DNA from: a virus
Direction: 5' to 3' (one strand)
IMG/VR virus record: IMGVR_UViG_3300006929_003529
Coordinates: 1 to 24,204 of that record
DNA length: 24,204 bases
A program made the translations under genes and the position numbers. The notes under the pieces are model-generated. The model saw only the letters and a program-made list of their open reading frames with translations, had not been told where the DNA came from and made no database searches. Positions within the stretch are counted from its first letter, which is position 1, and every line of letters begins with the position of its first letter. Shown here in pieces: positions 3,181 to 21,034 of this stretch.

Positions 3181-3188
3181 CTATAATA
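3181..3188 (+). promoter_or_regulatory. Candidate promoter element CTATAATA upstream of ssDNA-binding protein gene
   Basis: CTATAATA lies in the 63-base gap before the ssDNA-binding protein gene, one of only four such gaps in the window. It resembles a sigma-70 -10 box and the T4 late octamer. A weak TTAAAA hexamer stands 17 bases upstream of TATAAT. The predicted transcript would start near 3194, giving a leader of about 32 bases with AAAGGAG (3212-3218). The same octamer recurs at 4373, 22017 and 22610. Confidence 0.55.
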
Positions 3189-3225: not shown

Positions 3226-3966
3226 ATGGCTATTGACCTAGACAAAATTAAAGAAATCCACGCAAACCTTTCAGGAAAAGGCACAGGTGGTGGAGGAATG
3301 TCCGATACATTCCTGAAGATTGAGGATGGCACAAATTCTGTGCGAATCTTACCTCCCAAGGAGGATACCCAAGACTTCTATGCAATGACAAAATTGCATA
3401 GGGTTCCCATGCAGGACGGCACAACCAAGAATATTCATTGCCGTCAAGTGCATGGAGAGCAGTGCCCTATCTGCAACCTTTACTACTCGCTATGGAAGGA
3501 GCCTACAAAGGATGAAACCCTTGCGCGTCAGATTAAGGGTAGGGATCGTTATTACATGAATGTAGTTGATCGCAACACGGGAGAGGTTAAGATTCTCTCT
3601 GTTGGTATTATCTTGTTCAAGAAAATTATTGCCGCAATGGTTGACCCTGATTATGGGGACATTACTGATGTGGAAGAGGGTCACGACTTCAAGATTATCA
3701 AAATCATGGAAGGACAATGGCCTAAGTATGATCAGTCAGCACCCCGTCCCAAGTCTACCCCTGCGGGTACTGGAGCAGAGGTTGCTGGTTGGATGGATAC
3801 TCTTCACGACATCCAGTCTCTTGTGAAGCTGGAAGATTATGAGGAGCTTAAGCAGATCTCTGAAAGCATCAACCCTTTTGCAGCGGTTGAAAGGTCTGCT
3901 GGTGACATCAACCGTTCTACTACAGAGGTTGGTGACGATGATTACATGGAAAGATTACAATCATGA
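3226..3966 (+). CDS. Single-stranded DNA-binding protein, T4 gp32-like with zinc site
   Basis: Coats ssDNA at the replication fork and in recombination. It has 246 aa. A basic N-terminal segment (MAIDLDKIKEIHANLSGKG) is followed by an OB-fold-like core (about 28-165) carrying a zinc-ligand cluster: H71, C72, H76, and C80-P-I-C83. T4 gp32 also inserts a zinc site (one His, three Cys, ending CxxC) in its core. The C-terminus has the short acidic run GDDDY near the end, as in phage SSBs that recruit replisome partners through an acidic tail. ATG 3226 has an excellent AAAGGAG 7 nt upstream and its own candidate promoter, consistent with a highly expressed protein. It overlaps the lipoprotein gene by ATGA. 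Confidence 0.85.
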   Translation: MAIDLDKIKEIHANLSGKGTGGGGMSDTFLKIEDGTNSVRILPPKEDTQDFYAMTKLHRVPMQDGTTKNIHCRQVHGEQCPICNLYYSLWKEPTKDETLARQIKGRDRYYMNVVDRNTGEVKILSVGIILFKKIIAAMVDPDYGDITDVEEGHDFKIIKIMEGQWPKYDQSAPRPKSTPAGTGAEVAGWMDTLHDIQSLVKLEDYEELKQISESINPFAAVERSAGDINRSTTEVGDDDYMERLQS

Positions 3967-4355
3967 AAAATATTATTTTACCTGCCGCTCTTGCGGTTCT
4001 GTTTGGAACGGGTCTTATGTCCTGTTCTATGATTGAGGGCTTTATGGGAGAAGGTACAACCGAATCTCCTGGAGGATTTCTCGACAACATTTGGACCCTA
4101 CTAAAGGGGTTCCTTCCTAGTCTTGCTGCTTGGGAGGGTGGATGCTCCATCTTCAGCCCAAGAAAAAGGCAACACTACACCAACATGGTTACTGCTATTG
4201 TACCCATGAACAAGAACATGGAGTTTGGGGACGCTATTAAGTCTCTTGGTTCTGGTCTTGGGTTAGCCCACTCCTCGGACGCAACAAAATCCACTAATGC
4301 TGATGAAGTTGCGACCAAGAAAGTAGAGGCTGCAAAACCTGCAAAAAAAGCATAA
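3963..4355 (+). CDS. Small predicted lipoprotein
   Basis: Protein of 130 aa. The N-terminus is a lipoprotein signal peptide: K2, a hydrophobic core (residues 4-18), then the lipobox L18-M19-S20-C21, so the mature protein would be lipid-anchored at Cys21. The mature part has a hydrophobic or amphipathic helix (about 41-57) and a basic patch (SPRKRQ). The tail is low-complexity and Lys/Ala-rich (EAAKPAKKA). Met at -2 of the lipobox is unusual but tolerated. No lysis or entry-exclusion family is recognised; a spanin-like outer-membrane subunit, superinfection-exclusion lipoprotein or virion protein are all open. Its start overlaps the ssDNA-binding protein stop by 4 bases, an odd pairing of an abundant replication protein with an envelope protein. 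A terminator follows. Confidence 0.7.
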   Translation: MKNIILPAALAVLFGTGLMSCSMIEGFMGEGTTESPGGFLDNIWTLLKGFLPSLAAWEGGCSIFSPRKRQHYTNMVTAIVPMNKNMEFGDAIKSLGSGLGLAHSSDATKSTNADEVATKKVEAAKPAKKA

Positions 4356-4372
4356 GAAGTAAAAAGCAGGAT

Positions 4373-4380
4373 CTATAATA
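4373..4380 (+). promoter_or_regulatory. Candidate promoter element CTATAATA at the head of the sugar operon
   Basis: CTATAATA begins five bases before the terminator stem and ends inside its 5' arm. A transcript started about six bases downstream of the box would begin near 4385-4386, within the stem, so it would lack half of the hairpin and escape termination. This is the only copy of the octamer found between 4355 and 22000 and could serve the whole sugar operon. No -35 hexamer is evident. Confidence 0.5.
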
Positions 4381-4410
4381 TGGGGAGCTTAACCGCTCCT
4401 CATATTTTTT
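4378..4410 (+). terminator. Rho-independent terminator after the backbone operon
   Basis: An 11-pair stem (4378-4388 with 4395-4405) contains one G-U pair (4383/4400) and closes a six-base loop TTAACC. The last T of the 3' arm starts a run of six T (4405-4410). This is a textbook intrinsic terminator, placed 22 bases after the lipoprotein stop. It marks the end of the upstream transcription unit and the left edge of the sugar island. Confidence 0.88.
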
Positions 4411-4414
4411 ATCT

Positions 4415-5656
4415 ATGGAAAAACTAAAGATTTTATGTTGTCCCGCAAATGATGGCGGGTGTAGTTACTACAGGGCTTGGTCACCTTTTGCCAAGTTAGC
4501 GGAGCAATTCCCAGAGTTAATTGAACTTAGGTTTGATAAAAACCCTTTGGGCTTAGATGTCGAGAAGGGTGAGTGGGACACAGAGTTTGATTTTGAAAAT
4601 ATGAAATGGGCTGATGTAATCATGACCCAAAACATATGCAATTACGGTGGGCCTTATACCGCTAGGATAGTTGGAAAAGCAAAAGAGTTTGGCAAGTTCG
4701 TTCACTTTGATACTGATGATTTATTGACCGATTTATATGATGGGCATAGATTAAAGAAAGTTTATGAAGAGCGAGGCTTATCTGATATCACCAAATTTAT
4801 TTATCAGAACTCTGATCTTGTAACAGTAACTCAAAGAAAGTTTGCCGCCAGGATTCAAGAGTATTGTGGTGGAGTTCTTGCTGTTATTAAGAACGCTATT
4901 GATTATAATCTACCTTGCTGGAATGTTCCAAAGTCTAAGCCTAGAAGAAAAAGAACAGTAAGGGTTGGTTGGGCAGGAGGAATCCATCATGAGGAAGACG
5001 TTAAAGAGTTCGCAGGAGTACCTCACTTCGTCAACCAGAGAGTTGGTATAGAAAATGTTGAATGGCATTTCTTTGGTCGCCCACCTAAAACACCTGACCA
5101 TCAAGAAGACGATTGGCAGTACGATGTGTGGAAAAACTATCAAAGGATTTTGCTTAAAGGTTTTAAGGGAGCTAAGAATTGGTTTGTTCATGACGCACTA
5201 TCGACTGACACTTATGGGGCAATCTTTGCACACATAGATGTTGCCATTGCGCCTCTTCAAATGAATGCATTTAACGACTCAAAGTCTGAAATTAAAGTGG
5301 CCGAGTGTGGTCGCTACAAAGTTCCGTTGGTTGCATCAAACGTAGGCTGCTACGACGAAACAATTACAAACGGCAAGACAGGTTATTTGATTGATGTTAA
5401 TGCTCCTCCAAAAGACTGGGTTAATACTCTGACTAAAGTAATCAGAGATCCAAAGCATAGATTGGAGATGGGCCAAAACCTACATGAGCTTACAGAGACT
5501 TATTTTGATTTAAATAAAGTTGCCAAGTCTCGACTGGAGTTATACCGAGATGCTGCTGACCTAAGAGGGGCTAAAGAACTTCATGAAAAAATGTGCAACC
5601 TACTAGGGGAAGGGAGCCCCGAGAAGTATGATTTTCCAGTGTTATCCGAAGAGTGA
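4415..5656 (+). CDS. Glycosyltransferase, GT-B fold (group 1 / GT4-like)
   Basis: Transfers a sugar from a nucleotide donor in the cytoplasm; 413 aa, a normal length for the family. Two Rossmann-like halves are visible: an N-terminal half with HFDTDDLL (98-104), and a C-terminal half starting at VRVGWAGG (182-189). The family donor-binding segment is SEIKVAECGRYKVPLVAS (291-308), with E292 and E297 as candidate nucleotide-binding acids, followed by NGKTGYLID. It is the first gene of the island. ATG 4415 lies 4 bases after the terminator T-run and has no Shine-Dalgarno, unlike most genes here, so its initiation may be weak or unusual. It overlaps the next gene by 29 bases. Acceptor and donor cannot be told. 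Confidence 0.85.
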   Translation: MEKLKILCCPANDGGCSYYRAWSPFAKLAEQFPELIELRFDKNPLGLDVEKGEWDTEFDFENMKWADVIMTQNICNYGGPYTARIVGKAKEFGKFVHFDTDDLLTDLYDGHRLKKVYEERGLSDITKFIYQNSDLVTVTQRKFAARIQEYCGGVLAVIKNAIDYNLPCWNVPKSKPRRKRTVRVGWAGGIHHEEDVKEFAGVPHFVNQRVGIENVEWHFFGRPPKTPDHQEDDWQYDVWKNYQRILLKGFKGAKNWFVHDALSTDTYGAIFAHIDVAIAPLQMNAFNDSKSEIKVAECGRYKVPLVASNVGCYDETITNGKTGYLIDVNAPPKDWVNTLTKVIRDPKHRLEMGQNLHELTETYFDLNKVAKSRLELYRDAADLRGAKELHEKMCNLLGEGSPEKYDFPVLSEE

Positions 5657-6443
5657 GTATAAGAAGGACTTATTTAAGACCGAGCCATATCAGGGTTTCG
5701 GCCTGGAGCGGGATGTAAACAAGTTATTAACTTTGAACTGTCCTGAACTAGTTGATCCTAAGACAAGGATGCAACTGACTGAGTATGCTTGCTTTTTGTG
5801 GCATTGGAGAAATCCAGGACATGATTCCGATAGTTGGATTGGAACAACCTCTTATAGGCAGCTTGATAAATTCCCACACATCTTTCAATCTAAAGATGAG
5901 ATTCGAGGTTTGCTTAAAGAACATGAGATCGTTGGGTGGGGAGAGTACGATTGTTTTGCAGTTACAAGAAAACCCTCACCTAAGATGGTAGAGGATCACG
6001 GCTTGAATGTTGAAAATCTTCCCGAAGATGGTGCATTTGCAATACCCATTTCGCTTAAGAGGCAAGCTGATTTATGTCATCCAGGCTTAGGTGATTACAT
6101 TGAGTTTATGTTTAAAAAGTTTGGTCATACTGTGCCTGATGATTGGGATAAAACCACTAGAGGGTTTTACGCCAACTATTGGGTTATGAACAAAGATTTG
6201 TTTAACGACTTTATGTCTTTCTCTTGGCCTATGGTTAAGTGGAGTCTAGAGAATATTGAGGTGACGCATTACTATAACATCCAGCCAGTATACGGAACTG
6301 TCAGTAATAATAAGGCTACTGGATACTTCATGGAGAGGTTGTTTATGCTTTGGTATTTGTCTAAAGGCATAACACCGTATAATCCTTCTGAGCCTAGTCA
6401 GTTAATGAATAAGTATGAATGGGATGGTGTAACAGATGAATAG
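5628..6443 (+). CDS. Putative glycosyltransferase, DUF4422-like
   Basis: Protein of 271 aa. A segment WIGTTSYRQ (70-78) parallels the HYRRY motif of DUF4422 proteins, which occur in capsule and LPS clusters. The C-terminal GYFMERLFMLWYL resembles the end of the same family, where a conserved Arg precedes a hydrophobic helix. No DxD is obvious. The start at ATG 5628 lies 29 bases inside the upstream GT gene; no later in-frame start precedes the conserved region. It overlaps the next GT by 8 bases. Assignment is by motif resemblance only; a sugar-binding or acceptor-recognition protein is possible. Confidence 0.5.
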   Translation: MIFQCYPKSEYKKDLFKTEPYQGFGLERDVNKLLTLNCPELVDPKTRMQLTEYACFLWHWRNPGHDSDSWIGTTSYRQLDKFPHIFQSKDEIRGLLKEHEIVGWGEYDCFAVTRKPSPKMVEDHGLNVENLPEDGAFAIPISLKRQADLCHPGLGDYIEFMFKKFGHTVPDDWDKTTRGFYANYWVMNKDLFNDFMSFSWPMVKWSLENIEVTHYYNIQPVYGTVSNNKATGYFMERLFMLWYLSKGITPYNPSEPSQLMNKYEWDGVTDE

Positions 6444-7317
6444 TTATTGTACTTTATCTGATGTAAATTATCTTGATAGGGGTTTAGCCCTGTACGACTC
6501 TTTGTACAAGAGAGAAGACCGAACACCTTTTGCATTGCATTACTTGTGCTTGGACGATGAGACATACAAGAGACTTTTACAACTAGATCTCCCCTTTCTG
6601 TTTGTGTATCGAGTCGAGGATCTTGAAGAAAACGAAGACTTAAAAGAGGCTAAAGGTAATCGTGATAGAAAAGATTATATCTTTACGTTAGCTTCTTACT
6701 TCAGCGACTACCTACTAAACTCCTTAGAGTTTGATAGTATTTTCTATATGGATTCAGACATTTACTTTTATGATGATCCACAAACCGTAATTGATTGCTG
6801 CGAAGGCAAGGATTGCGGCATCATGTTACATCGCCATAACTTTGTAGGCCATAGAGATGGTGGTTTTAATGTTGGGGTTGTTTGGTTTAAGAAATCTGAG
6901 AAAGGTCGTGAGATCTTATCATGGTGGAAGAATGCTGTTCTAAAGAAAGAGCCTAAAGAGCTTTCCATCATGGGTGATCAGAAATACTTAGAGGCTTTTA
7001 CTCCTATGTTTGGTGAAGACTGTGTTAAGGTTATTGATGATGACATTGGACATGGCGCACCTTGGAACTTTAGATTGTATGTTTATGATGATTTCAAGGA
7101 AAAGGGTTTGATTGGTTGGGGAGACAAGAAGCAGAAACTGGTCTTTAACCACTTCTCGCAGTTTTGGTATAACCCAGACGAGAAACAAATATCCTTTGAC
7201 AATAATGTATACGCCCACTTAACTTATAATGGTGCAGTATTTATGACTCCTGAGGTTTACGGAATGTATGAAGATTATTATTCAGCTTTAGTGGAGGTTA
7301 AAAAGAAATGGCTTTAA
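6436..7317 (+). CDS. Glycosyltransferase, GT8-like (GT-A fold)
   Basis: Retaining-type GT of 293 aa. The DxD metal site is in FYMDSDIYFYDDP (103-115; D106, D108), the form typical of GT8 and related families. GDQKYLEAF, HGAPWNF and FNHFSQFW further along match the usual GT8-like order (acceptor loop, then a His that helps bind the metal). It therefore should use a UDP- or GDP-sugar with Mn2+ to extend a glycan in the cytoplasm. It overlaps both neighbours (8 and 10 bases). The donor is not predictable. Confidence 0.75.
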   Translation: MNSYCTLSDVNYLDRGLALYDSLYKREDRTPFALHYLCLDDETYKRLLQLDLPFLFVYRVEDLEENEDLKEAKGNRDRKDYIFTLASYFSDYLLNSLEFDSIFYMDSDIYFYDDPQTVIDCCEGKDCGIMLHRHNFVGHRDGGFNVGVVWFKKSEKGREILSWWKNAVLKKEPKELSIMGDQKYLEAFTPMFGEDCVKVIDDDIGHGAPWNFRLYVYDDFKEKGLIGWGDKKQKLVFNHFSQFWYNPDEKQISFDNNVYAHLTYNGAVFMTPEVYGMYEDYYSALVEVKKKWL

Positions 7318-8195
7318 AAATAGCTTTCGGAATGATTGTATTTGAGGGTGATTATGTGCTTAAAGAGTGCTTAGAGTCTGTCTACCCTTACGCTACGCAG
7401 ATCCTTATCTCAGAAGGGCCTGTTAGATATTGGCAAGATAAAGGATTTACAACCTCAACAGATAAAACAAACGACATTCTTCATAGTTTTCCTGACCCAG
7501 AGAATAAGATTACTATTGTACATGGGCAGTTTGAGGAGAAGGATGAAGAATGTAGAGCTTACATGCCTTACCTCAAAGACGATATAGACTATATTTGGAA
7601 TCTAGATTCTGATGAGATATTTAAGGGTGAAGATATTGAAAAGTTGGTCCAAGTTCTAGAGGAAGAAAAGTACACTTCTGTGGGCGTGAGAAGCTGTTCG
7701 TTCTACGGTGGGTTCGACCATTACATTGGTGGTTTCGAGCAAATGCCTGACAATTTTTTACGCATTTTCAAGGTATATCCTGGCGCAAATTGGCTTACAC
7801 ACAGACCTCCAACGATCATTGCTCCAGAGGGTGTCGAAACGCTACCAGATAAGCATTTAGATAGTGAAACTTTATGGGAAAAGCATGGAGTTCAAATGTA
7901 TCACTACTCATATGTTTTCCCAACACAAGTTAAAAACAAGCTAGAGTATTATAAAGCTAAGGTTAGTATGCAACATTGTCATCCTAATTACTTCAATGAA
8001 ATTTTTCTTCCTTGGATTGCAGGAAATAAAGAAGTTGAGCAGACCTGGCAAGGTGTTCATGAATTTAATCCTGGGATAAGAATGCACTCATTTACAGAAA
8101 AATTTACTGGCTCTCATCCCGAAGCCATAGTTAAAGGTATGCCTGATTTAAAGCGGAGGCTAGATGAAGAATCACGAAGATTCTTGGAAGAATAA
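7308..8195 (+). CDS. Glycosyltransferase, GT2-like (GT-A fold)
   Basis: Protein of 295 aa. The N-terminus KIAFGMIVFEGDYVLKECL matches the start of a GT2 nucleotide-binding domain (beta strand, then the 'E..L..CL.S' helix). The metal site is WNLDSDEIF (97-105; D100, D102, E103), and the second half with HxH-like and aromatic residues is family-variable. It likely acts on a lipid-linked glycan in the cytoplasm. Start ATG 7308 lies 10 bases inside the previous gene, and the 3' end overlaps the methyltransferase gene by 32 bases. Confidence 0.75.
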   Translation: MALKIAFGMIVFEGDYVLKECLESVYPYATQILISEGPVRYWQDKGFTTSTDKTNDILHSFPDPENKITIVHGQFEEKDEECRAYMPYLKDDIDYIWNLDSDEIFKGEDIEKLVQVLEEEKYTSVGVRSCSFYGGFDHYIGGFEQMPDNFLRIFKVYPGANWLTHRPPTIIAPEGVETLPDKHLDSETLWEKHGVQMYHYSYVFPTQVKNKLEYYKAKVSMQHCHPNYFNEIFLPWIAGNKEVEQTWQGVHEFNPGIRMHSFTEKFTGSHPEAIVKGMPDLKRRLDEESRRFLEE

Positions 8196-8805
8196 AAAGG
8201 TCTTTGAAGCACAGCTTGCTTTAAATGAAAAAGAGTTAGATGCCTATCCTTTTCATTGGCAATGCCTTCTGAAGGGGATGAGTTTTTTAAAGAGTGGACC
8301 CACTAGGCAGGAGCCTAAGTCTTTCTTAGATTTAGGTTGTGGGTGTGGTGTATTTTCAAAACTCGTAAAGAGGCATTTCCCTACCATAAAATATAAAGGT
8401 TTAGATTATGCTGATGAGGCCATAGAGGTGGCATCTAAACGGTGGGGTATCATGGGTCTTAAGTGGGAAGTTAAAAGCTACAAGGATTTATCTGAAGAAG
8501 ACTTAAGCTTTGATATTCTTCATGCGGGAGCCATGCTGGATGTTCTTCCTAACGCTGATGAGGCATTAAAGCATTTGTGTGAGTTAGGGTTTACTAATTT
8601 AATTTTTGGTAGGATGAAATTAATTGAAGAAGATAGCAGAGTTGAAACATATGAAGCCTATGATTTAATAACCACATACGCTTTTTATCATAAACAATCA
8701 TTTGTGCATGAAACACTTCAAAAAAATGGGTATAATTATGTGGTCCTCGGTTACCCAGACAATGCTACGATAGTGGCATCAAAGCAGGAGTTAATTCTTG
8801 ATTAA
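8164..8805 (+). CDS. Class I SAM-dependent methyltransferase
   Basis: Protein of 213 aa with the SAM-binding glycine loop FLDLGCGCGVF (54-64), then the acidic strand end YKGLDYADEAIEVA (motif II) and FDILHAGAMLDVL (motif IV region). This is a single-domain Rossmann methyltransferase. In a sugar cluster the substrate is most likely a sugar hydroxyl or an NDP-sugar, but it could equally be a lipid or protein. GGAGG (8155-8159) stands 4 nt before ATG 8164. Its last codons overlap the TTG start of the aminotransferase by 8 bases. Confidence 0.75.
   Translation: MKNHEDSWKNKKVFEAQLALNEKELDAYPFHWQCLLKGMSFLKSGPTRQEPKSFLDLGCGCGVFSKLVKRHFPTIKYKGLDYADEAIEVASKRWGIMGLKWEVKSYKDLSEEDLSFDILHAGAMLDVLPNADEALKHLCELGFTNLIFGRMKLIEEDSRVETYEAYDLITTYAFYHKQSFVHETLQKNGYNYVVLGYPDNATIVASKQELILD
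8786..8790 (+). promoter_or_regulatory. Shine-Dalgarno deciding a TTG start
   Basis: AGGAG stands 7 nt before TTG 8798. No ATG or GTG exists in that frame before the aminotransferase homology begins, so this site supports TTG as the true initiation codon. Confidence 0.7.
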
Positions 8806-9715
8806 TTTATTTAATTTAAACAGTTATACTATTGATTTAGGTAGTTTCGATCATCATCTTCATGGTAGTATTGTAACAGAGTTTGAGAAAGAGTTTTGTG
8901 ATTACGTTGGAGCGAAGCATGGCTGTGCTTTAAGTAGCGCAACAAATGCAATTTTCTTATCGTTACTTAATAAAGATACTACTGTGGATATTCCCACGCT
9001 CATCCCTCCTGTTGTAGCGAACGCTATCACTAACTCAGGAAATAAAGTATCTTTTACAGATAACACCTTTTGGGTGGGCAGTAGTTATTATTTACATCAC
9101 TTCGAAGATTACAGCATCATTGATTCCGCGCAGAGAGTATCAAGAAATCAATTCAAAGAACATAGTCCTCACGATCTGATGTTCTTTAGTTTCTATCCAA
9201 CAAAACCTGTGGGTGGGATTGATGGAGGCATAATCGTTTCTGATGATGAGGATAAAATTAATTGGTTTAGAGAGGCTTCTATGAATGGAATGAGCTACTC
9301 TTTACATAATTGGGATCGTGAGCTAAAGTTCCCAGGGTGGAAAATGTATATGAATTCTGCACAGGCGTATGTTGCATTACAAAACCTAAGAAAGCTTGAT
9401 GAAAAGAAAGAAAGACTAGCAGATATTCGCCTTAAATACAACCTAGCTTTTGGTCAGTTAAACAAAAGCGATCATTTGTATAGGCTTAATGTAAAAGATA
9501 GGGCTACAGTTAGACATAATTTAAAAGAAGAAGGAATCATTACTGGAATTCATTACGAGCCTTTACATAAATCAGATGTATACGGAACTGATCAGAATTT
9601 AAAATGGTCAGAGCAAGAAGCTGCAAGCACAATAAGTATTCCTTTCCATGAGGGTTTGACAGACGGAGAGGTTGATAAGGTAATTCATGAGCTTAAACAA
9701 ACTAGCGTTAGATAG
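8798..9715 (+). CDS. DegT/DnrJ/EryC1/StrS-family sugar aminotransferase
   Basis: PLP enzyme that converts a keto-sugar nucleotide into an amino sugar using glutamate or glutamine as amino donor. It has 305 aa, shorter than the usual 360-400. Visible marks are the PLP phosphate and ring contacts in ALSSATNAIFLSLL (44-57), IIDSAQRV (107-114; D109 in the place of the DxAHA aspartate), and the Schiff-base lysine K136 in SFYPTKPVGG (131-140). TTG is the start. With the FdtA-like isomerase at 14489 it could make a 3-amino-3,6-dideoxyhexose, as FdtB does. Glutamine in DSAQ replaces the more usual AHA histidine. Some of the normal small-domain length is missing, so substrate shape may differ. Confidence 0.8.
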   Translation: MINLFNLNSYTIDLGSFDHHLHGSIVTEFEKEFCDYVGAKHGCALSSATNAIFLSLLNKDTTVDIPTLIPPVVANAITNSGNKVSFTDNTFWVGSSYYLHHFEDYSIIDSAQRVSRNQFKEHSPHDLMFFSFYPTKPVGGIDGGIIVSDDEDKINWFREASMNGMSYSLHNWDRELKFPGWKMYMNSAQAYVALQNLRKLDEKKERLADIRLKYNLAFGQLNKSDHLYRLNVKDRATVRHNLKEEGIITGIHYEPLHKSDVYGTDQNLKWSEQEAASTISIPFHEGLTDGEVDKVIHELKQTSVR

Positions 9716-10268
9716 AAACATTGCCTTGATAGGTAATAGTGATAGCATTCTAGACGAGGAGTATGGATATATTATTGATTCTCACAAACAAGTTGTTAGG
9801 TTCAATAATGCTATCACGGAAGGTTTTGAAAAATATGTAGGATCAAAAACTGATATACGGGTATCTAATCCTCATGTTTTTGAGGACCACCCAGACCATC
9901 ATGTAAATAAAGTAAGGCCAGGGAGCGAGCAATACAGATTAGACAACCCTGAAGAGCCTTACGCGCTTCTCCCAGCGAATATGTATAGACCACAATTATT
10001 GAGAGCAATTCAAGAAGATGGTATAGAAGGCTGCCCAACTGCAAAAAAGATAACTAAAGAATATACGGTAGGGTTTAGTTTTGTTTTACTGTGTGTTCGA
10101 ATGGGAATCATTCCAAATCTATTCGGTTTTAGTTTAGATATGGACAGACGAGGAACTCACTACTGGCAAGAGCGAGAGGCTCCAAACATGATAGGACATG
10201 ATCAACTACAAGAGCAACAGCTTTTGAGAGAGTTGAAGGAAGCAAACAAAATAAACGTATTTCAATGA
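9687..10268 (+). CDS. GT29 sialyltransferase-like glycosyltransferase
   Basis: Protein of 193 aa resembling the catalytic core of GT29, the family of eukaryotic sialyltransferases that use CMP-activated keto-acid sugars. The L-motif region runs IALIGNSDSIL ... VVRFNNA ... VGSKTDIRVSN (12-61). The S-motif region is YTVGFSFVLLCVRMG ... LFGFSLD (126-151). HYW (158-160) is the motif III equivalent, and H171-x4-E176 fits the VS motif, whose His is catalytic. It lacks a membrane anchor, so it is a soluble core enzyme. A Kdo-8-P synthase and a CMP-sugar synthetase lie just downstream, so the donor is likely CMP-Kdo or a related CMP-ulosonate, not necessarily sialic acid. It overlaps the aminotransferase by 29 bases and the aldolase by 4. 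Confidence 0.78.
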   Translation: MSLNKLALDRNIALIGNSDSILDEEYGYIIDSHKQVVRFNNAITEGFEKYVGSKTDIRVSNPHVFEDHPDHHVNKVRPGSEQYRLDNPEEPYALLPANMYRPQLLRAIQEDGIEGCPTAKKITKEYTVGFSFVLLCVRMGIIPNLFGFSLDMDRRGTHYWQEREAPNMIGHDQLQEQQLLRELKEANKINVFQ

Positions 10269-11161
10269 CTAGAACAGTAATCCCCATACCTCCCTCTTTT
10301 GATAAAGGAGGGCTTATGTTACAGCATGACAAAACCTTTGAGTATCTCAAATGGTTACACTCACAAGGAGTGAATGATGTGATGACCACAGCAGGAACCT
10401 CTCAATTCAACATGATGAATACAGAGGAGATCCTCCACTTAAATGAAACTGTGGCTATGTGTTTTCCAGGAAACAAGATTATCGGTGTACCTGCTTTAAA
10501 TACTTTTGATATGCAGCTTTTCTTAGATGATTCAATGGAGAAGAAACCAAAAGACACTAGTTATATTCTTCTTTATCCAGATCGGTTTTATCACACGCAA
10601 ACATTGATTGATTACTTTAAAGCGGCTAGTGATATTGTCGAGGGTCCAGTTTATGTGCATGACATGGGTATGCGTAGTGGAACAGGAGGATCTTGGGAGT
10701 ACACAGCGGAGGTGATCAATGAGATGCATGACCGAGGTATCGTGAAAGGCATTAAAGAGGAGCATCCAACCCTAGACTCAGCGTTTAAGTTCGTAAGCAG
10801 GTTACATGAAGACTTAGACGTTATCGTTGCGGGAGGTAGCATGAGAAGACACTCCCTTCTTCGCCATGCGGGAGCTAATGCATTTTTAGGTGGGTTAGGT
10901 AACTTGCTACCAGAGACCGAACTTGAGTACTGCAAGTTAATAGATGAAGAGTATACTAAAGAGGCAAAAGAAGTTGATTTCCTGTTGAAAAAAGAAAAAA
11001 GTCTGTTTGAGGTCTTCATGGCTTTTGGTTGGCATAGATCTTTACGGGAAGGAATGTCACAACTTGGGCACGGGTGTGACTATGATAGAATGCCTTGGCC
11101 TAAAAGAGATTTTTATTTTAAGAGGTGTATCAAGGAATGTATAGAGGAAATGATAAAATGA
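10265..11161 (+). CDS. Class I aldolase/synthase of the DapA/NanA (DHDPS/NAL) family
   Basis: TIM-barrel enzyme of 298 aa. Members condense or cleave pyruvate with an aldehyde through a lysine Schiff base. The predicted Schiff-base lysine is K164 in VKGIKEEH, and Y130 in VYVHDMGMRSG matches the family tyrosine before the RSG turn. The N-terminal phosphate/keto-acid loop normally GTTGE reads TTAGTSQ (41-47), losing the conserved Glu, so the substrate differs from dihydrodipicolinate or Neu5Ac. Beside Kdo-8-P synthase and a CMP-transferase, a role in making or breaking a 2-keto-3-deoxy sugar acid is the best guess. A strong internal ribosome site (AAAGGAGG before ATG 10316) exists, but the N-terminus upstream matches the family, so 10265 is preferred. 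Confidence 0.7.
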   Translation: MTRTVIPIPPSFDKGGLMLQHDKTFEYLKWLHSQGVNDVMTTAGTSQFNMMNTEEILHLNETVAMCFPGNKIIGVPALNTFDMQLFLDDSMEKKPKDTSYILLYPDRFYHTQTLIDYFKAASDIVEGPVYVHDMGMRSGTGGSWEYTAEVINEMHDRGIVKGIKEEHPTLDSAFKFVSRLHEDLDVIVAGGSMRRHSLLRHAGANAFLGGLGNLLPETELEYCKLIDEEYTKEAKEVDFLLKKEKSLFEVFMAFGWHRSLREGMSQLGHGCDYDRMPWPKRDFYFKRCIKECIEEMIK

Positions 11162-11964
11162 AAGATAAAGTATGGATTCTAGGCCCTTGTTCCCTAGAAA
11201 ATAGAAAAGTATTTATGTCCACGTTGGATGAGATTAATTCTTGCATGAACGAGGATGATAATTGGTATATGAAGGCAAGCTTTGATAAAGCTAACAGAAC
11301 TTCTCTACATGGTGGAAGAGGTCCTGGACTGGATTACTGCAAAGATGTGTGGGCTGAAGCTAAGGAGAAATACCCAGGCGTAAAATTGATTACGGATGTT
11401 CATGAAACTCACCAAGTTGAAGATCTTGTGGGTCATGTTGATGCCATTCAAATTCCTGCTTTCCTTGGTCGCCAAACGGATTTGATTGTAGAGTGTGCAA
11501 AACACTTCGACACCATCAACATCAAAAAAGGCCAATGGTTAGGACCAAACAATTTAATTAAGTCTGTAGACAAAGTTAAAGAGGTTAATCCTGATTGTGA
11601 AGCTTGGATCTGCGACAGAGGAACAAACTTTGGATACCATGATCTGTTTGTTAATTTCGGTATTGTGGATGAGCTTAAAAAGTATTACGATAAAGTAATC
11701 CTTGATTGCACTCACGCTACTCAAAGGTCCAGGTCGGTCTATGGGACTCAAGGCGATCCCATTCTTGCGGAGAGGTACTTCATGGCTGCAAACTTATTTA
11801 ATTATGACGGTGTATTTGCTGAGATTCACCCTTGTCCTCAAGATGCTGTATCTGACGGTGATTGTCAGTTAGGGATTCCTCAGTTCCGTGAAGTCCTTAA
11901 AAAGACTAGACTTATTGATGATCTTCCTCCTGTTGGAGAACACCGTAGAGTTGACGGTCACTAA
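11158..11964 (+). CDS. kdsA: 3-deoxy-8-phosphooctulonate (Kdo-8-P) synthase, metal-dependent class
   Basis: Condenses phosphoenolpyruvate with arabinose 5-phosphate to give Kdo-8-phosphate. It has 268 aa, a full-length TIM barrel. Diagnostic motifs are MKASFDKANRTS (38-49), RGPGL (54-58), ITDVHE (78-83), IQIPAFLGRQTDL (97-109) and DRGTNFGYHDL (153-163). C11, H186, E222 and D233 match the four metal ligands of the metal-dependent class (Aquifex type); E. coli KdsA has Asn in place of the Cys. The start is ATG 11158, not the ATG 33 bases upstream: AGAGGA lies at 11143-11148 and the ATGA overlap fits the operon style. The product would pass to the HAD phosphatase and CMP-transferase next door. 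A related ulosonate is an alternative product. Confidence 0.9.
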   Translation: MKDKVWILGPCSLENRKVFMSTLDEINSCMNEDDNWYMKASFDKANRTSLHGGRGPGLDYCKDVWAEAKEKYPGVKLITDVHETHQVEDLVGHVDAIQIPAFLGRQTDLIVECAKHFDTINIKKGQWLGPNNLIKSVDKVKEVNPDCEAWICDRGTNFGYHDLFVNFGIVDELKKYYDKVILDCTHATQRSRSVYGTQGDPILAERYFMAANLFNYDGVFAEIHPCPQDAVSDGDCQLGIPQFREVLKKTRLIDDLPPVGEHRRVDGH

Positions 11965-12633
11965 ATGCGAAGATTAGCTGTAATCCCTGCAAGGTCAGGG
12001 TCCACTAGATTAAAAAATAAGAACACTTTCCCTTTAGGGGGCAAGCCTCTTATTCGTTGGATGACTGAAGCAGTTTTGGAGTCTGGTTGTTTTGATAAGG
12101 TAATCATCTCAACCGATGGTGATCATATTTTTGATGCCGTGTCAGACCTACCTGTCGAAAGGCATCATCGTCCCCACGATGACGCTACGGTTAAAGCCAC
12201 CGCTCTTGATGCTATGCTTAACCTTATGGAAAGCACAGAAGAGGAGTACGATGTCTTCGCTTATTTCTTACCCACTTGCCCTTTTATTAGCTACTTAGAG
12301 ATTAGAAAAGGTGTAGAAGCTTTAGACGCTAGTACCGACTCAGTTATTAGCATGACTGAGATTCCAGAGACCCTACAGTTAGCATGTGTAATGAAAGATG
12401 ATTGGGTGCTGCCTGTTTACGATAATTTGGAACAAGGTATGACGAATAGCAAATTCTTAAAGAAATACTATAAACCTTCTGGTGCTTTTTACATGGGCTG
12501 GTGGGACACTATTCTTAAACACAGAAACTTTTTCAAAGGTAGCACAAAAGGTATTCGTATTCCTCAAGAACGATCAATAGATATTAACGATATTTATGAT
12601 ATCACACTAGCACAAAATCTCTTATCAGGATGA
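11965..12633 (+). CDS. CMP-ulosonate synthetase (NeuA/CMP-Kdo synthetase family)
   Basis: Activates a 2-keto-3-deoxy sugar acid with CTP, releasing diphosphate. It has 222 aa. The nucleotide loop is IPARSGSTRLKNKN (7-20). GGKPLIRW and KVIISTDGD (45-53) follow, and then the HRPHDDATVKATALDAM segment of the NeuA side of the family. GAFYMG and SIDIN near the C-terminus are also typical of NeuA/PseF/LegF enzymes. The family does not discriminate Kdo from nonulosonates such as sialic, pseudaminic or legionaminic acid. The direct KdsA neighbour favours Kdo or a Kdo-like sugar. It begins on the base after the kdsA stop and overlaps the HAD gene by 4 bases. Confidence 0.85.
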   Translation: MRRLAVIPARSGSTRLKNKNTFPLGGKPLIRWMTEAVLESGCFDKVIISTDGDHIFDAVSDLPVERHHRPHDDATVKATALDAMLNLMESTEEEYDVFAYFLPTCPFISYLEIRKGVEALDASTDSVISMTEIPETLQLACVMKDDWVLPVYDNLEQGMTNSKFLKKYYKPSGAFYMGWWDTILKHRNFFKGSTKGIRIPQERSIDINDIYDITLAQNLLSG

Positions 12634-12947
12634 AGATTTTTGTAGACATAGATGAAACAATCTGTGATACCCCAGCCTCCAGAGATTACAGTGAATCCAC
12701 GCCTTTAGTGGATCGTATAAATAAAATAAATAAGCTTTATGATGAGGGTAACACTATTATTTATTGGACTGCGCGAGGAACAGGCACAGGCATTGATTGG
12801 GTGGAAGTTACCGTAAATCAATTTAACGATTGGGGCGTTAAGTATAACGATCTAATGTTCGGCAAACCTGCATATGATCTTTTTATAGATGATAAAAATA
12901 TAAATTCAGAGACATTTTTTAAACATGACAAAACAAACATTTCTTGA
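12630..12947 (+). CDS. HAD-superfamily phosphatase, candidate Kdo-8-phosphate phosphatase
   Basis: Small HAD protein of 105 aa. Motif I is FVDIDET (4-10; D6 nucleophile, D8 acid/base). Motif II is YWTARG (45-50, T47). Motif III/IV is GKPAYDLFIDDKN (78-90; K79, D87, D88). No cap domain is inserted, as in KdsC, so it should act on an open phosphosugar. Between the CMP-transferase and methyltransferase, with kdsA two genes upstream, removal of the 8-phosphate from Kdo-8-P is the simplest role. KdsC is longer (about 180 aa), so this is a minimal, non-orthologous candidate. It overlaps the next gene by 23 bases. Confidence 0.65.
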   Translation: MKIFVDIDETICDTPASRDYSESTPLVDRINKINKLYDEGNTIIYWTARGTGTGIDWVEVTVNQFNDWGVKYNDLMFGKPAYDLFIDDKNINSETFFKHDKTNIS

Positions 12948-14109
12948 CCTAGGCTGGCAACCAATAGCCAACGGGTTTCTAGATAAAGAAGACAGCGATG
13001 ATGAGTTTTTCTTTAACTTAGAGGTAGCACTTGATGACGAAACAAAGTTGGTAACACAAAAAGACTATGTTGCGCCAGAGAAGATGTTCAATGAAAGCTA
13101 TGCTTATCGTGGGTCTATGTCACGAACCATGCTTGATCACTTCCAAAAAACCTCTTTTCTTTTGGCCTCTAAGTTTTCCGTGAATGCAAAGGTTTTAGAG
13201 ATAGGAAGCAACGATGGTGTTTTTATAAAAAACTGGCCTAAAGACCGTGCTTTTGCTGTAGAGCCTTGTGCTAATTTTGCAGAGGAAACCAATGCTTTAG
13301 GATACAAGACATACAGCAGGTTTTGGAACAAGGACTTAGCAAAAGATATTCTCGCTGAAAGTGGAGACATGGATTTAATTTTTGCAGCTAACTGTATGTG
13401 CCACATCCCTAACCTACAAGAAGCATTCTGTTCTGTTGCAACTTTATTGAACCCTGAAGGGTTGTTTGTCTTTGAGGATCCATCTTTAGCTAAGATGATC
13501 AACTTTAGTTCTTATGATCAGATTTATGACGAACACGCGCACATATTTTCGGTGATTGCCCTTAAAAATGAATTAGAAAAAGTAGGGATGCGGATCATCC
13601 AAGTTGATGATCTTTCTGTTCATGGGGGATCAAATAGAATTTGGGCAGCACACGAAAGCTCTTCTTGGGAGGTTACAGATAGCGTTGGACAAGCTCTAGC
13701 ATTTGAAAAGCTTTTAGGTTTAGATAACATAGCAGTTTTTGATAAATTCAGCGCGAGAGTAGCGCAATCAAAGTTTGATTTGTTAGATCTTCTATGGTCA
13801 TGCAAAAAGAACGGTAAGAAAGTAATTAGTTATGGCGCTACATCAAAATCTACAACGGTATTTAATTATTGTGGCATAGACTCAGAACTGATTGATTACA
13901 TTACAGACACAACACCAGAGAAACAAGGCAAGCTGTCTCCAGGTGTTCATATTCCTATTGTTGCACCTAGAGCCCAAATTGAGTCTGATGTTGATTTTGC
14001 CTTCTTAGGAGCTTGGAATTTTGCTGAAGAAATTTCGCTCAAGGAGAGGAAATTTATAGAACGGGGAGGGAAGTTTATAACTCATGTCCCCATCGTGAGG
14101 TTTGTATGA
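12925..14109 (+). CDS. Sugar C-methyltransferase-like SAM enzyme (TylC3/TcaB9-like)
   Basis: Protein of 394 aa with the architecture of NDP-hexose C-methyltransferases. It has a short N-terminal module (FLDLGWQPIANGFL, 6-19), then a SAM domain with VLEIGSNDGVF (90-100), YDEHAHIFS (201-209) and VHGGSNRIW. A second Rossmann-like C-terminal module holds YGATSKSTT and a PGVHIPIV segment. The family's N-terminal zinc knuckle of paired cysteines is missing; the protein starts just after where it should lie. It probably places a branch methyl on a 4-keto sugar nucleotide, though related proteins act on other carbons. It overlaps the HAD gene by 23 bases with no strong Shine-Dalgarno, and overlaps the cupin gene by 4. 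Confidence 0.75.
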   Translation: MTKQTFLDLGWQPIANGFLDKEDSDDEFFFNLEVALDDETKLVTQKDYVAPEKMFNESYAYRGSMSRTMLDHFQKTSFLLASKFSVNAKVLEIGSNDGVFIKNWPKDRAFAVEPCANFAEETNALGYKTYSRFWNKDLAKDILAESGDMDLIFAANCMCHIPNLQEAFCSVATLLNPEGLFVFEDPSLAKMINFSSYDQIYDEHAHIFSVIALKNELEKVGMRIIQVDDLSVHGGSNRIWAAHESSSWEVTDSVGQALAFEKLLGLDNIAVFDKFSARVAQSKFDLLDLLWSCKKNGKKVISYGATSKSTTVFNYCGIDSELIDYITDTTPEKQGKLSPGVHIPIVAPRAQIESDVDFAFLGAWNFAEEISLKERKFIERGGKFITHVPIVRFV

Positions 14110-14510
14110 AGTATAGTTTTAAAGACATTCAGTATAATGAAGATGACCGCGCACAAAGGTATCTAAATGTGTTTCCTCACTTAGAGGGACAGCTAAACGT
14201 ATCTTATGTTAATTCAACTGAGCATATTGTTGCTTGGCATAAGCACGATATTCAAAGTGATTACTGGTGTTGCATAAAAGGATCTTTTAAAGTTGGTTTA
14301 GCAACTGATGATGGAGAAGTGAAGTGGGAGTACTTATCAGAAAAAACACAACGGGTATTGGAGATTCGCCCTGGAGTATATCATGGCTACAAGGCCCTTG
14401 AGCCAGGATCCATTTTAATGTATCACCTCACACATAAGTATAATCCTGAAGATGAGATCAGAGCTAAGGTTGGTTCTTTTGGAGAGAAATGGGAAAAGGA
14501 AAACAAATAA
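14106..14510 (+). CDS. RmlC-like cupin, putative sugar-nucleotide epimerase
   Basis: Protein of 134 aa with a single cupin fold. WHKHDIQSDYWCCIKG (44-59) and PGVYHGYKALEPGSILMY (89-106) match the strands of dTDP-4-keto-6-deoxyhexose 3,5-epimerases, which end with PG..HG, as well as related cupins. The catalytic His and Tyr of RmlC would be about H47 and H93 with nearby Tyr, but this was not aligned. It is shorter than true RmlC (about 180 aa), so it may be a mono-epimerase or an isomerase. Next to an FdtA-like isomerase it belongs to the deoxysugar branch. Overlaps the next gene by 22 bases. Confidence 0.6.
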   Translation: MKYSFKDIQYNEDDRAQRYLNVFPHLEGQLNVSYVNSTEHIVAWHKHDIQSDYWCCIKGSFKVGLATDDGEVKWEYLSEKTQRVLEIRPGVYHGYKALEPGSILMYHLTHKYNPEDEIRAKVGSFGEKWEKENK

Positions 14511-14920
14511 CAGTAGATGATGTTCAGTTCTACAACATGAAGACTGTTGTAGATGAGAATGGTAATTTAACACCCATAGAATCTAATGAAGCTCTTCCCT
14601 TCTCGATAGAGAGAGTTTTCTACGTTTATGGTGTAAGAAGTGAGGAGCTTCGGGGTTGTCATGCCCATCATAATACACAGCAGTTATTAATTTGTTTAAA
14701 CGGAAAGATACAGGTCATATGTAAAGACGGTGAAAAAGAAAGGCAGTTCTTGCTTGAATCACCTCAACAAGCTTTGTATATTCCTAACATGATTTGGGAT
14801 GAGCAGCTTTATCGGTCAGAGGATTCTGTTCTGTTGTCTGTGTGTAGCACTAAGTACAACTCTACAGATTACATTCATTGTTTTGAAGAGTTTAAAGAGT
14901 TAAAAGGTATTAAAGAATGA
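14489..14920 (+). CDS. fdtA: FdtA/QdtA-like dTDP-4-keto-6-deoxyglucose 3,4-ketoisomerase
   Basis: Cupin of 143 aa. It shows the family layout: NLTPIESNEALPFSIERVF (26-44), RGCHAHHNTQQLLICLNG (55-72, with catalytic-type H58 and H60), SPQQALYIPNMIW (91-103), and the C-terminal STKYNSTDYI. FdtA moves the keto group from C4 to C3 of dTDP-4-keto-6-deoxyglucose, which then feeds a DegT aminotransferase such as the one at 8798. No RmlA or RmlB is in this window, so the 4-keto-6-deoxy precursor must come from host enzymes or elsewhere on the phage. GGAGA lies upstream of ATG 14489, which is also 22 bases inside the previous gene. Confidence 0.82.
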   Translation: MGKGKQITVDDVQFYNMKTVVDENGNLTPIESNEALPFSIERVFYVYGVRSEELRGCHAHHNTQQLLICLNGKIQVICKDGEKERQFLLESPQQALYIPNMIWDEQLYRSEDSVLLSVCSTKYNSTDYIHCFEEFKELKGIKE

Positions 14921-15828
14921 AAGTTTTAGTTACAGGTGGTTGCGGTCATATAGGCTCTAAGTTTATTAGGTCTGATGGAGTTGACGAGTATGATATTACT
15001 GTTGTTGATAACTTATCAACACAGCGGTACTGCTCTTTGTTTTACTTGCCAAAGAAAATAAAATTCATTAACTCAGATTTTGCTGACCTGACGGTTGATT
15101 ATTTGAAGCAGTTTGATGTTGTGGTTCACTTAGCGGCAATAACAGACGCACCCAGCACGTTCACGGACAAAGGATCGCTAGAGAAAACAAATGTGGTTAA
15201 AACAAAGAAGTTCTTTAGGCTTTGTGAGTTGGCTGAGTGTAGAATTATCTTCCCTTCTTCGACAAGTGTATATGGTAAAGCAGTTGATGAAGTTTTTGAG
15301 GATGACGTTACAGCGTTAAATCCACAAAGCCCTTATGCGGAAGCAAAGATCAGTATTGAAAAGTTTCTACGATCAGGCTCTGGCAAATTCACTATCTTAC
15401 GCTTTGGTACTATCTTTGGATACAGCATGGGCATGAGATTTCATACTGCGATAAATAAGTTTTGCTTCGAAGCAGCACTAGGAAAACCTTTAACTGTGTG
15501 GAAACAAAACTATGAGCAATACAGACCTTACTTAGGTCTTGATGATTGTGCTAGGGCTTTGTGCCATTGTATAGAAGAAGAGGAGCTAGTTGGAGAACAA
15601 CAAACCTACAATGTTCTTTCTACGAATGCAAGATTAAAAGATATTGTTAAGTATATTACTGATAAAACATCTGCTAAGGTTAACTATGTTGATACTCCGT
15701 TACTAAACCAACACTCTTACTTTGTTAATCATGACAAAATTAAATTTGTAGGCTTTACTCCTGTAGATGATTTGTTTGATAGCATTTCCAACACCTGTAA
15801 TGCTCTCGCAAATATAAATAATGCGTAA
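14917..15828 (+). CDS. NAD-dependent epimerase/dehydratase (extended SDR)
   Basis: Nucleotide-sugar enzyme of 303 aa. VLVTGGCGHIGS (3-14) is the NAD loop. VVDNLST (29-35) binds the adenosine end, and FPSSTSVYG (112-120) with Y140-x3-K144 forms the catalytic set. It resembles UDP-glucose 4-epimerase-type SDRs but is somewhat short, and the sugar pocket is not informative. Within this cluster it may be a reductase or epimerase for a dTDP- or GDP-sugar. ATGA overlap with the upstream gene, 8-base overlap with the next. Confidence 0.8.
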   Translation: MKVLVTGGCGHIGSKFIRSDGVDEYDITVVDNLSTQRYCSLFYLPKKIKFINSDFADLTVDYLKQFDVVVHLAAITDAPSTFTDKGSLEKTNVVKTKKFFRLCELAECRIIFPSSTSVYGKAVDEVFEDDVTALNPQSPYAEAKISIEKFLRSGSGKFTILRFGTIFGYSMGMRFHTAINKFCFEAALGKPLTVWKQNYEQYRPYLGLDDCARALCHCIEEEELVGEQQTYNVLSTNARLKDIVKYITDKTSAKVNYVDTPLLNQHSYFVNHDKIKFVGFTPVDDLFDSISNTCNALANINNA

Positions 15829-16555
15829 GTTACTAATTACTGGGGGTGCTGGTAAACTGGCGCAGCAACTAAGCATTAAGAATAAGGGTCGGTATTTGAT
15901 TTACGCACCTCATCGAAGTGCAATGGATTTAACCTCGCTTGAATCTGTAAAAAGGTACATGGATAAAACTAAACCTGATATTGTTCTTCATGCTGGTGCC
16001 TACACTAGACCCATGAATAAGCATCAAGAAAATGCTGACATAAGTATCCAGACGAATATTATTGGGACTTGTAATGTTGTTCTATCTTGCATTGAGCATG
16101 GCTGCAAATTAGTGTATGTCTCTACAGATTATGTTTATCCTGGGACCGAAGGTAATTATAACGAAAACAGCCCTTTATCTCCCTACAAAGGAAACGACGA
16201 TGGCCTAACCAAGTATGGCTGGTCTAAGCTAGGAGGCGAGTGTGCAGTAAAAATGTACGACAATTCGCTGATTTTGAGAGCTTGTATTTGTGACAAACCC
16301 TTTCCACACAAGAAGGCAGCATTAGACGTTAGAAAGAGTTTACTATTTAATGATGAAGCGGCAGAGATTATGTTAAAACTCTTGGAATATAAGGGTATAA
16401 TAAATGTGGGGGGACCAGCGCAATCGGTTTACGATTTTGCGTATGGAAACGACCCAAGAACCGAAACTCTGAGTCGAGAAGATATCAAGGATGTTAATAT
16501 CGCTCCTGATACGACGATGGACATCTCAAAATTAAAGAGTATACTAAAAACATGA
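15821..16555 (+). CDS. RmlD-like dTDP-4-dehydro-sugar reductase (SDR)
   Basis: Reductase of 244 aa. ITGGAGKLAQQL (6-17) is a degenerate nucleotide loop. DLTSLESVKRYMDKTKPDIVLHAGAYT matches the RmlD region that senses the sugar, and VYVSTDYVYPG (98-108) with Y132-x3-K136 gives the catalytic Thr/Tyr/Lys. Reduction of a 4-keto group after epimerisation is the family reaction. RmlD is about 290 aa; the C-terminus here is shorter. It could finish the deoxysugar made by the cupin pair. The first 8 bases overlap the SDR above. Confidence 0.75.
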   Translation: MRKLLITGGAGKLAQQLSIKNKGRYLIYAPHRSAMDLTSLESVKRYMDKTKPDIVLHAGAYTRPMNKHQENADISIQTNIIGTCNVVLSCIEHGCKLVYVSTDYVYPGTEGNYNENSPLSPYKGNDDGLTKYGWSKLGGECAVKMYDNSLILRACICDKPFPHKKAALDVRKSLLFNDEAAEIMLKLLEYKGIINVGGPAQSVYDFAYGNDPRTETLSREDIKDVNIAPDTTMDISKLKSILKT

Positions 16556-17163
16556 AACCCGTAAAGCTTAATGTAGGTTGTGCATCAAGGATTCTTCCAG
16601 ACTACATTAACATTGATCTAGACTCTCTAGAAGAAATTCGCAAAAGATACCCAAACATATCTGTGCCCGAGAGCGGCGAGTTTATGGTAGGCGATGTATT
16701 AAGTTTGGATTTTGATGATTCCTCTGTTGATGAAGTAAGAGCAGACGCTTTGGTGGAGCATCTATCGTTTCTTGAAGAGCCTAAGTTTTTTAATGAAGTT
16801 AAAAGGGTTTTAAAATCAGGGGGCATATTAAGATTCTCTGTTCCTGATTTTGAAGATGCCGTCCGCAAGTGGTTGGAGGCTGAAGATGATTGGAAGGACT
16901 TTTTTAGAAATGATGATGATGCCATAGCTGATAAACATTGGTTTGGTAACTACTCCTATTCCACAGACAATAGGTGGGGTTATCTAATGGCAAGTATTTT
17001 TGGTCCACAGAATGGAGTTGGACAATTTCACAAGAATGCGTATACTCAGAAGAAAATAGAGGCAATATGTAAAGCCCTTGATTTTGAGAAACCTAAGATA
17101 GAAAGGTTTTTGTGGAAGGGCGAGAGAGATTTAATGCTTCGCGTGGAGGTAAAGAAACTATGA
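16552..17163 (+). CDS. Class I SAM-dependent methyltransferase
   Basis: Protein of 203 aa. The SAM loop is KLNVGCASRILPDYINID (5-22), followed by VGDVLSLDF and EVRADALVEHLSF (motif IV region), and then VKRVLKSGGILRFSVPDF, typical of Methyltransf_11-type domains. Family members in LPS/capsule clusters methylate sugar hydroxyls or the glycan end, which can stop elongation. The target is not predictable. ATGA overlap on both sides; the next gene's GGAGGT lies inside its last codons. Confidence 0.78.
   Translation: MKPVKLNVGCASRILPDYINIDLDSLEEIRKRYPNISVPESGEFMVGDVLSLDFDDSSVDEVRADALVEHLSFLEEPKFFNEVKRVLKSGGILRFSVPDFEDAVRKWLEAEDDWKDFFRNDDDAIADKHWFGNYSYSTDNRWGYLMASIFGPQNGVGQFHKNAYTQKKIEAICKALDFEKPKIERFLWKGERDLMLRVEVKKL
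17145..17150 (+). promoter_or_regulatory. Shine-Dalgarno deciding the start at 17160
   Basis: GGAGGT stands 9 nt before ATG 17160, within the end of the methyltransferase gene. Together with the ATGA stop/start overlap, it supports 17160 over an in-frame ATG 48 bases upstream. Confidence 0.7.
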
Positions 17164-20379: not shown

Positions 20380-21034
20380 GCAGGTTCGAAAGGATGGGAT
20401 TTGTATTTTAGGTGACTCCTTACTAAGTGAGGACCAGCTAAGTTTCTTTCTTTCCACCTTAGATAAATTATCAAAAGAGGATAGTGATTATAAGTTTGGC
20501 AAAGCTTACAATGCAGGTAATGTCCACGACTGGAACGGGACAAAAATAACCTCTTTATGTAACAGTCCTCTGATGACAGGATGTATTCATGAATTTTTTG
20601 GAAAGCAAATTGTAGCTGAGATCTTCTTTACTCATGAGTATAAAAATGATGAAGGTTTAGATAGAAATGCATATCTGCATTTTGATAGAATACCTAGCTT
20701 AAAGTTCTTTATTTATTTAACTGATTGTCTTGATGAAAGTGGAGCGTTTCACTTTATTCCAGGCTCACATCATCTAGGTAGAGAGTTAAGATTAAAAGGC
20801 CAACAAAACTATTTAACTGATTTTGATGCTAACAGGAAGGACTATGATGAAAAGAAGAACAGGCTTGAGGTTGATTTCCCTGAGCTAGGGTTTACAAAAA
20901 AAGACGCTATTCCTCTTACAGGAAAAGCAGGTACTATGTTCGTCTTTAACACCGATATGTTTCATTTTGGAGGTGAGATTAAAGATGGAGAAGAAAGAAA
21001 AGTAATGAGGATACATTTAAGGAATACAATATGA
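20330..21034 (+). CDS. Phytanoyl-CoA dioxygenase-like Fe(II)/2OG oxygenase (PhyH family)
   Basis: Protein of 234 aa with PhyH-family order: a basic start RKDGICILGDSLL (20-32), H117-x-D119 in LHFDRIPSLK, a short ESGAFHFIPGSHHLG segment (136-150) typical of the family, then H212 in DMFHFGGE and R223 in EERKVMRIH for the 2OG anchor. PhyH-like enzymes in glycan or natural-product clusters hydroxylate small molecules or lipids. The start is ATG 20330, 50 bases inside the preceding GT gene; no later start leaves the domain intact. ATGA overlap with the epimerase gene. Confidence 0.8.
   Translation: MEQTTPSEESYCQEIIKQVRKDGICILGDSLLSEDQLSFFLSTLDKLSKEDSDYKFGKAYNAGNVHDWNGTKITSLCNSPLMTGCIHEFFGKQIVAEIFFTHEYKNDEGLDRNAYLHFDRIPSLKFFIYLTDCLDESGAFHFIPGSHHLGRELRLKGQQNYLTDFDANRKDYDEKKNRLEVDFPELGFTKKDAIPLTGKAGTMFVFNTDMFHFGGEIKDGEERKVMRIHLRNTI

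Follow-up and report, generated by a model that had tools for sequence, protein, structure and literature searches.

The genes around the junction

The window, meaning the whole stretch of DNA that was analysed, is a virus record of 24,204 bases whose replication genes encode a DnaB-like helicase, a gp32-like protein, a dCMP deaminase and a UvsX-like recombinase, with glycan-synthesis genes placed between gp32 and the deaminase as a long, overlapping series on the + strand (Table 1). The viruses of this group infect bacteria, are marine and have not been cultivated. Searches of phage records with the gp32 protein (77 records) and the glycosyltransferase protein (68 records) gave matches that were all below 60% identity, so that the phage-record collection searched yielded no cultivated virus closely related to this one. 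A DNA search of phage records with the gp41-gp32 stretch returned nothing but short helicase matches in seven cyanophage records, and half of the ten large proteins of record G001 that were scanned against PHROGs had no match.

The glycosyltransferase gene that follows gp32 and a small 130-aa protein is present in all seven relatives compared, at 61-87% identity, whereas the region from 5628 to 22041 is common, as a block, only to the window and its nearest relative, G003; five of its genes have single matches elsewhere besides G003. The original prediction had taken the junction ahead of the glycosyltransferase gene as the left border of a sugar island. This placement does not hold, since the glycosyltransferase gene is conserved and the later block is exchanged, and the variable part begins after about 5656 rather than at 4414. 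The conserved junction and the conserved first gene are better described as a fixed entry into a block that changes behind them. Within that block, a DAHP-synthase-family gene adjoins a cytidylyltransferase gene (11125-12633), a pairing that suggests synthesis and activation of a keto sugar.

Table 1. Positions of the features discussed, numbered from the first base of the window
Feature	Position	Strand	Basis or remark
CTATAATA ahead of gp32, predicted promoter of the gp32 unit	3181..3188	+	exact match
gp32-like single-strand DNA-binding protein	3226..3966	+	PF08804 E 2.4e-16; phrog_1192 E 5.5e-35
130-aa protein with lipoprotein-like start (by eye), last gene ahead of the terminator	3963..4355	+	no family match
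CTATAATA box, predicted -10-only promoter	4373..4380	+	motif enrichment and conservation
Predicted intrinsic terminator	4377..4410	+	stem 4377-4388 / 4395-4406, T-run through 4410; 5′ arm shares 4 bases with the box
Predicted transcription start	4385..4386	+	inferred from the 12-13 nt box-to-start-codon spacing elsewhere
Glycosyltransferase gene, conserved, first in the downstream unit, without Shine-Dalgarno	4415..5656	+	PF00534 E 8.8e-10; phrog_7162 E 2.6e-33
Variable glycan gene block	5628..22041	+	transferases, methyltransferases, aminotransferase, DAHP-synthase-family, cytidylyltransferase, epimerases
CTATAATA 12 nt ahead of the uvsX ATG (22622)	22610..22617	+	leaderless spacing that calibrates the start site

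A box overlapping a terminator hairpin and its conservation

Between the 130-aa gene and the glycosyltransferase ATG at 4415 lies a G+C-rich stem-loop followed immediately by a U-run, the usual form of an intrinsic terminator. Its arms, AATATGGGGAGC (4377-4388) and GCTCCTCATATT (4395-4406), enclose a 6-nt loop and form 12 pairs, 11 of them Watson-Crick and one G-U, so that the stem of 11 pairs originally reported was nearly right and one pair short. The RNA fold of 4356-4420 has an energy of -20.3 kcal/mol (z -3.85) that was equalled by none of 200 shuffles, and among the terminator-like sites listed for the window this stem has the most pairs, the next best having nine. The 5′ arm does start within the box, as had been claimed, with position 4377 falling inside CTATAATA. 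Exact copies of CTATAATA occur four times in the window, on the + strand only (3181, 4373, 22017 and 22610), and by reading of the sequence each sits 12-45 nt ahead of an ATG. Inside the glycan block, no fused box-terminator was found between 5628 and 22041, and no exact CTATAATA or CTATTATA, the related form of the box described below, is present on the + strand before 22017.

Conservation of the junction was followed through two protein searches, which have many contigs in common and are not independent, as related loci are not independent of one another. The gp32 search gave 41 loci, and in 32 of these an exact CTATAATA is fused to a terminator hairpin at the same junction. Among the remaining nine, the contig is too short to reach the junction in four (L008, L011, L023 and L040) and stops within the hairpin, after its box, in L007; L033 has CTATAATG in place of CTATAATA, the junction is absent from the 1,800 nt scanned in L035, and L041 and L042 have the terminator without the box. 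From the glycosyltransferase search, the best 80 of 173 matches were kept and combined with the window into 81 upstream regions, of which 29 were dropped for sharing many 8-mers with kept ones. Box and terminator are both present in 50 of the 52 non-redundant regions that were left from these best 80 matches and the window, the exceptions being L121, with a terminator and no box, and L086, with neither. The box is also missing from L122, as from L121, and L086, together with L087 and L094, is an intra-operon copy of the glycosyltransferase gene that has neither signal. With 50 of 52 non-redundant loci carrying both, a chance overlap of box and terminator is ruled out.

The pattern CTATnAT near the stem was used to score the box, so these letters are invariant among the 50 loci by definition; the unconstrained result is that 50 of 51 terminator-bearing regions matched the pattern. 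Variation within the box was confined to position -9 (A in 42, T in 6, G in 2) and position -6 (A in 46, G in 4). Across the 50 loci the box has a mean pairwise identity of 0.95, compared with 0.39 over the 40 nt leading up to it, 0.53 over the next 8 nt and 0.30-0.45 farther away, and 49 of the 50 hairpins differ from one another. In eight chosen sequences, two of 13 stem pairs had changed on both sides. The retention of the fused signal while the surrounding sequence changed points to a role that is probably the insulation of two neighbouring gene blocks. No conserved -35 was found across the 50 junction sequences, and the box site is absent from the output of a two-hexamer scan for a sigma-70 -35 hexamer (near TTGACA, at 16-18 nt); a sigma-70 promoter with a -35 was rejected on both counts.

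Fusion is not a general rule for the terminators of these phages. In a scan of six records, which left out G003 and G010, 5 of 24 intergenic terminators were fused, all five at the gp32/glycosyltransferase junction. A second junction, found at G008 36292, G009 2334 and G010 37971, has a terminator T-run that abuts CTATAATA and a leaderless start; its counterpart in G005 has a box at 27810 upstream of a complete terminator, which the escape logic set out below does not predict. In L022 (1770-2886), two copies of the fused element flank roughly 1 kb of sequence that contains a 297-aa ORF; of these copies, the glycosyltransferase-side copy retains CTATAATA and the other has TTATAATA with the hairpin intact.

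A degenerate DNA pattern run over viral contigs returned 25 stretches. Five that had not come up via gp32 were inspected (L051, L053, L054, L061 and L068), and of these L061 alone had a terminator. It led to G006, a viral contig of 327,992 bases that lies outside both the gp32 loci and the 80 kept glycosyltransferase loci and has sigma region 2 matches. Three of the 28 intergenic terminators of G006 are fused to CTATnATA (43692, 107976 and 233042), at different and unrelated genes, against a rough expectation of 0.16 (P 6e-4); these sites are treated as a lead, since the offset window was chosen once they had been seen.

Leaderless spacing, a candidate sigma factor and the predicted start

Motif counts in eight records (the window, G001, G003, G005, G007, G008, G009 and G010; 657 called genes) place CTATAATA first in enrichment among all 8-mers of the 60-nt upstream regions, with 43 occurrences against 1.28 expected from coding sequence, and CTATTATA third, with 21 against 1.43. 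Their spacing to the ATG peaks at 12 nt (19 starts) and 13 nt (4 starts), and 22 of these 23 starts are without a Shine-Dalgarno-like string, compared with a frequency of 46.7% for such strings among all 657 genes. By reading, the 23 gene starts correspond to 21 distinct sites, since a pair of divergent genes shares one site in G009 and likewise in G010. Genes at this spacing include uvsX and, in G003, G005, G009 and G010, the sigma gene itself. A 12-13 nt spacing without a Shine-Dalgarno suggests leaderless mRNAs, and CTAT[A/T]ATA placed 12-13 nt before an ATG probably marks a phage regulon with leaderless mRNAs, to which uvsX and, in the four records, the sigma gene belong. At the first gene behind the junction, no Shine-Dalgarno was seen by eye ahead of 4415, in agreement with the original prediction, and an SD-like string occurs at 2 of the 52 homologous glycosyltransferase starts, far from the frequency among all genes in the eight records.

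The divergent sites are CTATAATAG, which reads CTATTATAG on the other strand, at G009 6871-6888 and G010 33519-33536. This near-palindromic box stands at leaderless spacing to the sigma gene and to a divergent 340-aa gene, and looks like a bidirectional promoter. G009 and G010 also have a CTATAATA box ahead of gp32.

The window record stops short of the sigma gene, which is known from the relatives. A PF04542 (sigma region 2) search of seven long relatives found one short ORF in each (7/7, E <= 1e-4), with the curated cut-off exceeded in three, and the candidate sigma proteins are 113-120 aa in length. Four of five of these proteins matched phrog_234, the gp55 family, at E values from 4e-4 to 0.094, and the fifth did not match. 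A structural model built from 21 aligned sequences (pLDDT 86) had its best match in T4 gp55 within a promoter complex (7d7c_F; Z 10.3, 110 of 116 residues, rmsd 2.5), with other sigma factors scoring within about 1 Z of this match. Helical folds commonly reach Z scores of such size. Foldseek by itself gave E 0.22 and a probability of 0.99 for the model, and a sequence search of the PDB with the candidate sigma profile found no sigma factor. The name is therefore kept at gp55-like rather than gp55, as the sequence evidence is weak. A gp55-like protein is a plausible reader of the -10-only box, and a sigma factor with region 2 alone would require no -35, as is observed at the box.

A spacing of 12-13 nt is that expected if the mRNA starts at the start codon, and on this basis the +1 of the junction box was placed at 4385/4386, which is 12 or 13 positions after the C of the box (C+12 or C+13). 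The start so predicted lies within the 5′ arm in all 50 loci, and is a purine in 49 of them at either position (C+12: G 44, A 5; C+13: A 32, G 17). The idea that a new transcript would begin inside the stem is thus borne out at the level of prediction: because the start sits in the 5′ arm, the new RNA from the window would lose 8 or 9 of the 12 pairs, with a change in fold energy from -17.3 to -4.7 or -1.1 kcal/mol. Averaged over the 50 loci, 7.3 of 13.1 pairs are lost with a start at C+12 and 8.3 with a start at C+13, and the mean fold energy of -20.2 kcal/mol rises to -7.6 and -4.7 kcal/mol, respectively. More than half of the stem is kept by 10 of the 50 loci at C+12 and by 4 of the 50 at C+13, which counts against escape, and some residual hairpins remain stable, such as that of L092, which retains -17.1 kcal/mol at C+12. 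In all 50 loci the residual stem ends at least 3 nt short of the old stem end, a gap that should break the contact between hairpin and U-run.

Probable insulation, alternative readings and comparison with known systems

The junction is probably a fused terminator-promoter that insulates two transcription units running in the same direction. A polymerase arriving from the gp32 unit would copy the entire stem and terminate at the T-run, close to 4410. Another polymerase, probably with a phage sigma factor that reads only a -10 in the manner of T4 gp55, would bind CTATAATA and start at 4385/4386, within the 5′ arm, and its RNA, lacking most of the stem, would form no hairpin against the U-run. 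Transcription would then continue through the glycosyltransferase gene into the variable glycan genes downstream. An on/off junction had been proposed originally, which suggests a temporal switch, but gp32 upstream has the same box, and an insulator between units of one promoter class fits better for that reason. The gp32 unit itself is probably strongly transcribed.

Several other readings of the junction were weighed against insulation. It is unlikely that an ordinary terminator has acquired a chance -10 look-alike, with the glycan genes reached by read-through. A-rich bases that pair with a U-run do resemble TATAAT, in the window and near relatives TATT is indeed the pairing partner of AATA, the final four bases of the box, and boxes with one mismatch show no enrichment in the window (28 found against 31.5 expected); yet the CTAT part lies outside the 12-pair stem of the window, and in L134 and L144 the box is present though wholly or mostly outside the stem, so that it is not retained merely for pairing. 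A look-alike also fits poorly with the low flanking identity, 0.30-0.53, and with the same 8-mer ranking first in upstream enrichment and peaking in its spacing to start codons. Attenuation usually sits ahead of a long operon, and the hairpin here does precede one, but it is quite improbable that gp32 and the glycan genes share a single transcript whose termination at 4410 is controlled through an alternative fold, by a protein or by translation of the gene upstream. No Rfam match was found in the window at the gathering threshold, the upstream 40 nt hold no conserved arm (0.39 identity), the stem begins 21 nt past the upstream stop codon, a distance at which, by reasoning, a terminating ribosome would not cover it, and the kept box is left unexplained.

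Little credence is likewise given to a promoter-terminator pair that yields a short RNA or pauses polymerase, with sigma on a -10-like element in transcribed DNA delaying elongation at the hairpin. Such a delay is part of lambda Q control, a -10 element immediately ahead of a hairpin suits sigma-dependent pausing, and the G005 box at 27810 precedes a complete terminator. By contrast, with the predicted start inside the stem in 50 loci, a short RNA begun at the box would not end at this hairpin, and the analysis gave no direct support for pausing. A relay is doubtful as well; here the polymerase released near 4410 would stay on the DNA, slide back about 25 bp to the box with the phage sigma factor and start the glycan operon, coupling glycan expression to that of gp32 at a lower level. 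Reinitiation by RNA polymerase at nearby promoters, upstream or downstream, has been observed in vitro after intrinsic termination (PMC6978380), and at the present junction release site and start lie about 25 bp from each other. The system described there is in vitro and has a separate promoter and terminator, unlike the present junction, where recycling is hypothetical.

If the insulating reading is correct, the junction would be a compact, strongly conserved insulator in which some 38 bp both close one transcript and open another, and would offer a natural system for testing if polymerases that have just terminated begin again in place. It also illustrates how a single fixed expression junction, followed by one conserved gene, can serve a glycan block while the other genes of that block are exchanged. 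A further implication is a promoter class, so far little known, in marine phages that are abundant and uncultivated; it has CTAT[A/T]ATA as the box, a gp55-like sigma factor and often leaderless mRNAs. The literature searched gave no natural case of a terminator that overlaps the promoter behind it as here, a weak negative given that few subscription journals were covered. The arrangement appears to be new and is conserved, with component signals of known kinds and a function predicted from sequence.

T4 gene 32 is followed by an intrinsic terminator, and the present hairpin resembles it in having a G+C-rich stem, a short loop and a U-run behind the gp32 unit; it differs in that its 5′ arm overlaps a -10 box and holds the predicted start of the next transcript. 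The T4 late promoter box, TATAAATA, is read by gp55, and phage Aeh1 uses CTAAATA with a strong C (PMC1524935). Like T4 late promoters, the junction has a -10-type box and no conserved -35 across its 50 sequences, its box ends in AATA as does the T4 box, and the relatives encode a sigma-region-2 protein for which gp55 is the best fold match. Unlike the T4 late consensus, the box is CTAT[A/T]ATA (CTATAATA / CTATTATA), and it would work like a T4 late promoter rather than be one, because it departs from that consensus. The candidate sigma factor, at 113-120 aa and with phrog_234 at E 4e-4 at best, also differs from the 185-aa gp55 of T4, and the box, unlike T4 late promoters, precedes replication genes, often at leaderless spacing.
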